A DNA stretch of 64,000 bases from Vicinamibacterales bacterium. GTDB taxonomy: Bacteria; Acidobacteriota; Vicinamibacteria; Vicinamibacterales; UBA2999. The notes below the pieces were generated by a model. It had not been told where the DNA came from. It searched no databases and saw only the letters and a program-made list of their open reading frames with translations. The first letter of the stretch is position 1; each line of letters starts with the position of its first letter. Positions 2,434-4,576 of this stretch are shown here, in pieces. The stretch is from positions 1 to 64,000 of the forward strand of contig JAUXWO010000055.1 of the NCBI GenBank assembly GCA_030680175.1, in the 5' to 3' direction. Both the position numbers and the translations under genes were made by a program.

Positions 2434-3165
2434 ATGGAATCCCTTCGCCCTGCCTCGACAGTGATTGTGCTCCGCGCGGCCGCGGACGCCCCGTTTGAAG
2501 TGCTCATGGTGCGGCGGCACGACAAGGTCGCCTTCATGGCGGGCGCGTACGTGTTTCCCGGTGGGCGGGTGGACGAGGCGGACCGGCAGGGGGCCGCCCC
2601 CGCGACCGAGGCGCCGTCGCGGTTCACCGACCTGACACCGGTGGAGGAGGCGGCGTACCGCCGGGCCGCCGTGCGCGAACTCCAGGAGGAAGCCGCGGTC
2701 ACCCTTCCGGTCGAGGCGTTGATCCCGCTGGCGCACTGGGTGACGCCCGACATCGAGATCCGGCGCTACGACACGCGCTTCTTCCTGGCGGTGGTGCCCG
2801 CGGGACAGCACGCGCAGCACGACAATCACGAGACGACGGCTCTGGCGTGGCTGACGCCGGATCAGGCGATCGTCGAGTACCGCGCCGACCGCATCCTGCT
2901 GCCGCCGCCGACGTGGACCACCTTGCGCCAGCTCGCACGGCACACGTCGCTCGACGCCGCGGTCACCTGGGCGCGCACCCGCCCCATCGTCCGCGTGCAG
3001 CCGGGGTTTCTGAAGCGCGAGGCCGACACGCTCCTCACGCTCCCCGGCGACCCGCTCTACCCGGCGATCGAGGGGTGGGAAGTGCCGGCCGAGACGCGGT
3101 TCCGGCTCGACGAGGGCCGGTGGCGGCCGGTGACGGTGGAGCCGGGTCTCGCGCCCGACGCCTGA
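2434..3165 (+). CDS. Nudix hydrolase (NUDT19-like arrangement)
   Basis: 243 residues. The Nudix box is split: YVFPGGRVDEAD near residues 37-48 and the catalytic RELQEEAAV near residue 80 are separated by a roughly 30-residue insertion. That layout is typical of NUDT19-type and acyl-CoA/CoA diphosphatase relatives rather than MutT. A C-terminal region of about 100 residues follows (TWTTLRQLARHTSL and LKREADTLLTLPGDPLYPA). It probably hydrolyses a nucleoside-diphosphate derivative, possibly CoA or acyl-CoA, in the cytoplasm; the substrate is inference. I chose ATG 2434 because the residues upstream are encoded by a heptamer array. No clear ribosome binding site is visible. Confidence 0.85.
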   Translation: MESLRPASTVIVLRAAADAPFEVLMVRRHDKVAFMAGAYVFPGGRVDEADRQGAAPATEAPSRFTDLTPVEEAAYRRAAVRELQEEAAVTLPVEALIPLAHWVTPDIEIRRYDTRFFLAVVPAGQHAQHDNHETTALAWLTPDQAIVEYRADRILLPPPTWTTLRQLARHTSLDAAVTWARTRPIVRVQPGFLKREADTLLTLPGDPLYPAIEGWEVPAETRFRLDEGRWRPVTVEPGLAPDA

Positions 3166-3282: not shown

Positions 3283-3386
3283 ACGGTATCGACCATTTGT
3301 TCCCTGTCCGAACTGCCGATCGGACAGGGATTCCGGGCCGTTCCTACGGAACGGCCCCTTTCGATATCGACCACACACTCCACTAG
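3276..3386 (+). repeat. Dispersed palindromic element, copy B, with two hairpins
   Basis: Adjacent to copy A and bounded by CTAGTGGA on the left and TCCACTAG on the right, so it has short terminal inverted repeats. Inside are two strong hairpins: CCCTGTCCGA/TCGGACAGGG (3302-3329) and GGGCCGTTCC/GGAACGGCCC (3335-3357, loop TAC) followed by CTTTC. The second hairpin recurs at 21047-21069. The right end contains the TAG stop of the minus-strand selenoprotein gene. The hairpins may act as a bidirectional terminator between the two convergent genes. Confidence 0.7.
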
Positions 3387-4051
3387 CTGGCGGGCGGGGC
3401 CGGCTCGTCGGGCAGCTGCAGGGCCGCGCGCACGAACATCTCCTCCGGCAGCGCGCCCATGATTTCGATCGTCTCGTTGACGATCGTCTTCGGCACCCCG
3501 GTCACCTGGTAGCGCCGGGTCAGCTCCATGAACTCCGTCGCCTCGATCGCCGATGCCGTGATGTGCGGGTTGGCGAAGGCCATCTTCTGAGCCAGGACGA
3601 CCGCCCTGGGACAGTGCGGTCAAGTGGGGGTCGAGAAGACCTGCAGGTGCACGGGCGTCGTGACCCCGGCCAGCAGCGCCAGGGTGGCCGGCTCGAGTTC
3701 CAGCTCGTGGGTGCCGGCCAGCAGCACGGCCTCGACGAGCGGCACGAACTCGTACCCCGACGGTGCGCCGTACATCCGGATGCGCGTGTCCTCGCCGTCC
3801 GACAGCACGACGATGGCGGGCGACTTGTCGACGCCGTACTTCGCGCGGTCTTCGGTATCGAGGACGAAGTTCTTCTCGACGACGGTGACCTTGTCGCTGA
3901 GGGCGGCCAGCTCGTCGACGACCTGCTTGGCGAGCAGGCCCGTCTCCGACCCGCCGAACGTCTGGGTAAACAGGAGGAGCGTCACCTCTTTGGTGATGGT
4001 CGAGAGGTGCTGCTTGAGGAGCTGTTCGTCGGCCGAGGAGAGCAGGGGCAT
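3383..4051 (-). CDS. Selenocysteine-containing protein disulfide oxidoreductase-like protein (two thioredoxin-fold units)
   Basis: A 222-residue protein if the TGA at 3622-3620 is read as selenocysteine (residue 144). The frame continues without another stop from the 143-residue first part into PHCPRAVVLAQKMAFANPHI and then VTGVPKTIVNETIEIMGALP, an ordinary C-terminal thioredoxin unit with its cis-proline (GVPKT). The TGA replaces the first Cys of the active-site CPHC, giving U-P-H-C. Length and two-unit layout match archaeal/bacterial protein disulfide oxidoreductases of about 220-230 residues, cytoplasmic dithiol exchange enzymes. The N-terminal unit (residues 1-120) keeps the fold but has no cysteine, so U144/C147 is the only redox pair. 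A TATAAT box lies six bases before the ATG. The alternative, a broken gene or a base error, is less likely because a SECIS-like hairpin sits at the right distance. Confidence 0.85.
3587..3614 (-). promoter_or_regulatory. Bacterial-type SECIS hairpin downstream of the Sec UGA
   Basis: In the mRNA sense, five bases after the UGA, CUG-UC-CCAGG pairs with CCUGG-CU-CAG around an 8-base loop GCGGUCGU. The helix has five continuous Watson-Crick pairs, a 2x2 internal loop and three more pairs. The loop contains GGUC, the apical motif recognised by SelB in the E. coli fdhF SECIS, about 18 bases after the UGA. The structure lies inside the coding sequence, as in bacteria. The pairing is read directly from the sequence; SelB recognition is inference. 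Confidence 0.75.
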
Positions 4052-4096: not shown

Positions 4097-4576
4097 CTAG
4101 ATTTTGAACAGGTCGTCGAAGGCCTTCTTTGCGCTCGAGGTGCTGCTCGGGGCGGAGGCCGAGGAGGTTTCGCGCTCCCACGACGTGCGGGGCGTGAAGA
4201 AGGTGCAGTCGTTCGGGGCATCCTTCGGAGAGACGCGCGCGGGGATGGGCTGCGTGCATTCGAGGCTGGCGCCCGAATCGAAGTGCATGCACTGCACGCA
4301 CGAGCGCAGCGCCTGTCCGCAGCGGCCGCACTTGCTGAGCGAGAGGATCTCGGCATCCACGGGGCTGGCGCAGCTCGCGCACTTGGCCACCTCGTGATAG
4401 CCCATCATGCGGGGGTTCTTCGCGCCCTCCGATGACAGCCGGCGCGTGCCCGCCGGCGCGCCCGGCGGCCGATCGGGCCGCGCCCCTTCGGGACCGGGCC
4501 CCTTGCGATCCCCCGTCCGGGCCGGCTTCGCGCCGGAATCCTGGTAGCCGCGCTGACGATACTTGCGATCAGACAT
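4097..4576 (-). CDS. Small zinc-ribbon-like protein of unknown function
   Basis: 159 residues. The first 50 residues are basic, Pro/Gly-rich and probably disordered (MSDRKYRQRGYQDSG). The centre carries paired cysteines: CASC near residue 60, then CGRC and CVQC within about 20 residues, then single cysteines in ECTQP and NDCTFF, consistent with one or two zinc ribbons. The C-terminus is Ser/Ala-rich. There is no signal peptide. The start lies 2 bases after the stop of the upstream serine hydrolase, so the genes are coupled, and the selenoprotein starts 45 bases downstream. I do not recognise a named family; a nucleic-acid or protein-binding role is a guess. Confidence 0.7.
   Translation of the reverse strand: MSDRKYRQRGYQDSGAKPARTGDRKGPGPEGARPDRPPGAPAGTRRLSSEGAKNPRMMGYHEVAKCASCASPVDAEILSLSKCGRCGQALRSCVQCMHFDSGASLECTQPIPARVSPKDAPNDCTFFTPRTSWERETSSASAPSSTSSAKKAFDDLFKI

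Follow-up and report, generated by a model that had tools for sequence, protein, structure and literature searches.

A split-looking acidobacterial gene very probably encodes one whole disulfide oxidoreductase with selenocysteine in its active site

Protein disulfide oxidoreductases (PDOs) of the TIGR02187 family with a UxxC motif are listed as a predicted selenoprotein family in two reviews, with no mention of Acidobacteria in either (PMC9312934; PMC13188914). Three selenoprotein families were reported for Acidobacteria in a survey of 2006, which also counted two selenoproteins in the family 'homolog of AhpF, amino-terminal domain' (PMC1794560). Given these listings and counts, and an NCBIfam model that is itself named PDO_seleno_TRX, the kind of protein described below is already known. 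Among its relatives, structures are available for the PDOs of Aquifex and Pyrococcus as well as for the N-terminal part of AhpF. The AhpF N-terminal domain has a working CxxC in its C-terminal half only.

The window, i.e. the whole stretch of 64,000 nucleotides that was analysed, contains a gene for a Sec-containing PDO of the TIGR02187 family at 3383..4051 on the minus strand, with its ATG at 4051 and a natural stop at 3385..3383. Reading an in-frame TGA (3620..3622, minus strand) as selenocysteine (Sec, U) gives a protein of 222 residues, in which U144 lies within VFSTPT-U-PHCPRAVV and forms the first position of a U-P-H-C active site. The resolving Cys of this UxxC site, Cys147 (codon 3611..3613, minus strand), is the sole Cys of the protein, and a cis-proline motif, GVP, occurs at residues 185–187. 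An earlier note on this DNA had correctly located both the gene and the TGA on its first active-site Cys codon, without giving the strand; a plus-strand reading of 3383–4051 was rejected, as it yields no such protein. The further claim of this note, that the frame continues past the TGA into a thioredoxin unit with its cis-proline, is borne out by the GVP motif and by a profile match which spans the TGA.

This match, to NCBIfam TIGR02187, covers residues 7–211 of the protein and positions 3–207 of the 209 in the model, with a score of 226.3 bits against a cut-off of 185, while Pfam places a thioredoxin unit at residues 135–211. An AlphaFold model built from 34 homologues (mean pLDDT 94.6) shows two thioredoxin units, and its top PDB matches are the PDOs 2ywm and 1a8l (TM 0.88–0.91; 0.91 for 1a8l), after which the N-terminal part of AhpF (5h29) is ranked with a TM of 0.88. 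The full-length profile score, the two tandem thioredoxin units of the model and the C-terminal UxxC with cis-proline thus agree with TIGR02187. By contrast, the score against the AhpF family TIGR03140 is 68.8 bits, where the cut-off is 502.9, and the 222 residues include no reductase domain, unlike AhpF with its fused flavoprotein reductase. The N-terminal CxxC of a canonical two-site PDO is absent as well, the corresponding site being a degenerate FGGSE (residues 32–36; 3944..3958, minus strand), as recognised by comparison with homologues. An N-terminal CxxC is present in many Cys homologues and in 53/90 U forms, and the state of this site changes eleven times on the protein tree. With the CxxC of the N-terminal unit lost, Sec144 and Cys147 form the only redox pair, and a single-site disulfide reductase resembling the N-terminal part of AhpF, rather than a two-site isomerase, is therefore predicted. 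The two-unit PDO proposed in the earlier note holds for the fold, but not for the number of active sites.

The TGA occurs at the same codon in 14/14 of the closest homologues (64–73 % identity), which derive from independent assemblies, all of them metagenome bins, and nearly all of which carry an Acidobacteria label. Among the distinct homologues, 90 have TGA at this position and 76 have Cys, the latter including more distant homologues from Chloroflexota, Fermentibacterota, Calditrichota and other taxa. Retention of the TGA on this scale is well outside what chance would produce. Within the acidobacterial class of the host, the PDO was found in 108/193 genomes, mostly in the TGA form, and eight genomes that belong to other classes of this phylum likewise have U at the site. 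The Sec form is thus not unusual, as had been supposed in the earlier note, but belongs to a listed UxxC selenoprotein family that is widespread in this class. Complete selA genes are encoded in 86/91 U-form genomes as compared to 3/12 genomes with only the Cys form (Fisher p 1.5e-7), with weak or partial selA matches (G003, G064 and G092) counted as absence of the gene. Two of the five U genomes lacking a full selA (G003 and G064) have strong tRNA-Sec matches, and the remainder may be incomplete assemblies. Matches to tRNA-Sec of 45–51 bits in the Cys-only genomes were not accepted as proof of selC, since extra matches of 45–46 bits, probably to other long-arm tRNAs, are also found in the genome from which the window derives. 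The Sec/Cys state changes twelve times on the protein tree, of which at least seven changes are forced by well-supported branches, the exact number being rough, given that the tree was built quickly and contains several long branches. Second TGAs at positions 214–222 of some homologues are most likely natural stops, and a form with two Sec residues was rejected. In one subclade (L157, L158, L163, L167, L169, L173, L177, L179 and L184) the motif is U-R-F-C instead of U-P-H-C, the dipeptide that separates Sec from Cys being unusual. One homologue labelled Cyanobacteria bacterium (L024; JAIEMQ010000035.1) nests firmly within the Sec-PDO clade of Acidobacteria, and probably stems from a mislabelled bin.

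Directly after the TGA, a block is nearly invariant across fifteen close sequences and frozen even at synonymous positions. Numbered from the base after the TGA, positions +11 to +28 (3592..3609, minus strand) form the upper stem-loop of a SECIS element, CCAGGGC-GGUC-GUCCUGG, with 7 bp, a loop of 4 nt and an energy of -10.7 kcal/mol when folded alone, as supported by the fold, a consensus fold and compensatory changes. Positions +12 and +27 are paired in 91 % of the 90 U forms, 36 of which have both sides changed (C-G to G-C), but in only 37 % of the 76 Cys forms. Similarly, +18 and +21 are paired in 99 % of the U forms, with thirteen double changes, as opposed to 51 % of the Cys forms. On the tree, the +12/+27 pair switches at least seven times and the +18/+21 pair at least nine times. 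All four positions are third codon positions, so that the pairing is not explained by the protein; compensatory changes at synonymous sites, missing from the Cys homologues, identify the +11 to +28 stem-loop as the SECIS element. More distant U forms have a shorter upper stem, with mismatches at +13/+26, +16/+23 and +17/+22. The published bacterial SECIS model has a loop of 3–9 nt with an early G, a stem of 4–16 bp, a spacing of 16–37 nt and an energy of at most -7.5 (PMC13188914), into which the window element fits with its GGUC loop, 7-bp stem, 17-nt spacing and energy. Folded by itself, the longer RNA favours a competing hairpin of which the UGA is a part, and for some lengths the z-scores of single-sequence folds do not stand out. 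This lowest-energy hairpin, in which the UGA region is paired with GCGGUC, was not accepted as the SECIS, considering that homologues such as L027 (C at +3) break its pairing, whereas compensation is observed for +11 to +28. An Rfam search of the window gave nothing above the gathering scores, and the SECIS therefore had to be established by comparison.

Taken as a whole, the best explanation is that the gene encodes a TIGR02187 selenoprotein, a double-thioredoxin protein with a single Sec144/Cys147 site, to which a probability of roughly 95 % can be assigned. One alternative accepts Sec insertion, and assigns the PDO mainly a dedicated role with the product of the gene directly upstream rather than that of a general reductase. 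This gene (4097..4576, minus strand) codes for a zinc-ribbon-like, Cys-rich protein of 159 aa, which has two Cys besides those of its CASC, CGRC and CVQC motifs and for which no Pfam or NCBIfam family was matched. The dedicated role would accord with the presence of a Cys-rich gene directly upstream on the same strand (median gap 55 nt) at 59 U-form and 7 Cys-form loci of the class, as against 0/59 loci outside the class. However, the Cys-rich protein is encoded in 155/193 class genomes, compared to 108 for the PDO, and is placed elsewhere in some families, so that neither protein needs the other. On these counts and locations an exclusive link was rejected and the dedicated role is unlikely; the partnership of the Cys-rich gene with the PDO is operon-like in part of the class, and not obligate. 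The G144 bin contains two Sec-PDO copies (L029 and L030), both preceded by a Cys-rich gene of their own, reflecting either duplication or mixed strains.

That the TGA is a real stop, leaving a pseudogene or an N-terminal product of 143 residues only, is highly improbable. TGA does end genes here, as in the NUDIX gene (TGA at 3163–3165), several homologues likewise have TGA as their terminator, and the genome assembly has draft status. Against a stop stand the retention of the TGA in the 90 distinct homologues and the purifying selection on the codons past it, the dN/dS between the window PDO and ten family relatives being 0.15–0.40 after the TGA versus 0.23–0.40 before, and no looser past the TGA than ahead of it in most of these ten comparisons, which speaks against a decaying pseudogene. 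Furthermore, the truncated product would be devoid of the only active site, and a stop leaves the compensatory changes at silent sites unexplained.

The machinery for Sec incorporation is encoded in the same genome, including tRNA-Sec (64.8 bits; called as tRNA-SeC(tca) by ARAGORN), selA (517 bits), selB (321 bits in all) and selD (273 bits), all above the curated cut-offs. Four further genes of this genome have a TGA at redox sites, comprising one formate dehydrogenase and three AhpC/TSA genes. The formate dehydrogenase alpha subunit (L213; G000:C62:82634-84523) has its TGA at the canonical Sec position (GSNNIDSCNRTUHAPSVAG), followed at 18 nt by a stem with a GGUC loop, as is found at 17 nt in the window PDO gene. 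The AhpC/TSA genes L229, L230 and L231 (G000:C142 and C94) have in-frame TGAs in FTAGUTAEC, DWUPYC and DWUPYC, respectively, and are probable further selenoproteins. Several genes with in-frame TGA might also be expected from a genome-wide reassignment of TGA to Trp, Gly or Cys, but TGA terminates genes here, the in-frame cases found sit at redox Cys/Sec sites and the Sec pathway is complete, which makes reassignment more improbable still than a true stop. That the TGA is a misread or misassembled TGC or TGT can be dismissed almost outright, for while the window comes from a draft genome of 143 contigs, 14 near relatives sequenced in independent projects share the same base, as do 90 distinct sequences in total. 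The selenoprotein identity put forward in the earlier note, that of a UxxC disulfide oxidoreductase, is accordingly supported by all computational tests run. Cys replaces U in related genomes and the sel genes are present, as it had suggested should be checked, and neither of the circumstances it had named as contrary, absence of the sel genes or a misread TGC or TGT, applies, the latter being excluded by the recurrence of the same TGA in many independent assemblies.

We infer that Sec is inserted at UGA144. By analogy with Sec insertion as known in bacteria, SelA, SelD and tRNA-Sec would make Sec-tRNA, and SelB would bind the stem-loop 17 nt past UGA144 and deliver Sec, so that one protein of 222 residues would result. 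In the most likely chemistry, the selenolate of Sec144 would attack a substrate disulfide, Cys147 would resolve the mixed selenide-sulfide, and the resulting selenenylsulfide would be re-reduced, most likely by a flavoprotein of the thioredoxin reductase type. Peroxiredoxins are likely clients. A thioredoxin reductase and several AhpC/TSA proteins are encoded in the same genome; next to the PDO neither a reductase nor a peroxiredoxin gene was observed, and the electron donor and clients are thus guesses. With its one site, the window PDO should serve as a disulfide reductase or electron shuttle, and not as an isomerase. It is conceivable, albeit doubtful, that the Sec-PDOs of the host class without an N-terminal site are mesophilic thioredoxin-like shuttles which serve Sec-peroxiredoxins and exchange electrons or zinc with the product of the Cys-rich gene upstream. 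If true, this would constitute a selenium-dependent redox branch that has not been described before.

Standard gene calling would render such a gene as two fragments, or as an N-terminal half without an active site, so that annotations of this enzyme would be wrong throughout a large class of bacteria. A search of the open-access literature on selenoproteins of the PDO type, Acidobacteria and Vicinamibacter returned nothing on the window protein, and no report on the spread in the class, the loss of the N-terminal site or the covarying SECIS was found in that literature. Judged from the genome sequences, a kind of selenoprotein that was previously on published lists proves to be common across one acidobacterial class. 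With numerous Sec/Cys switches on a single tree and repeated loss of the N-terminal CxxC, the family offers a good natural experiment on the retention and loss of Sec, while the compensatory changes provide a clean sequence-level definition of the acidobacterial SECIS.

In comparison with the bacterial SECIS consensus (PMC13188914), the window element is alike in being a stem-loop just past the UGA, with a small G-first loop and a 17-nt spacing, but has its own stem sequence, with a G-C/C-G pair at +18/+21 on either side of the GU. The protein belongs to the same family, by full-length profile, as the reviewed TIGR02187 or 'homolog of AhpF N-terminal domain (Grx-like)' proteins, for which ABB15282.1 is listed as an example, and shares their UxxC, but has lost the N-terminal CxxC (PMC13188914; PMC9312934). 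With the PDOs of Pyrococcus furiosus and Aquifex (1a8l and 2ywm) it has in common two tandem thioredoxin units and a C-terminal site with cis-proline, and differs in having Sec for the first C-terminal Cys and in being without an N-terminal CxxC. The double-thioredoxin fold is likewise that of the AhpF N-terminal domain (5h29 and 1zyn), from which the window protein is distinguished as a free-standing protein with no fused flavoprotein reductase, and with Sec instead of Cys.
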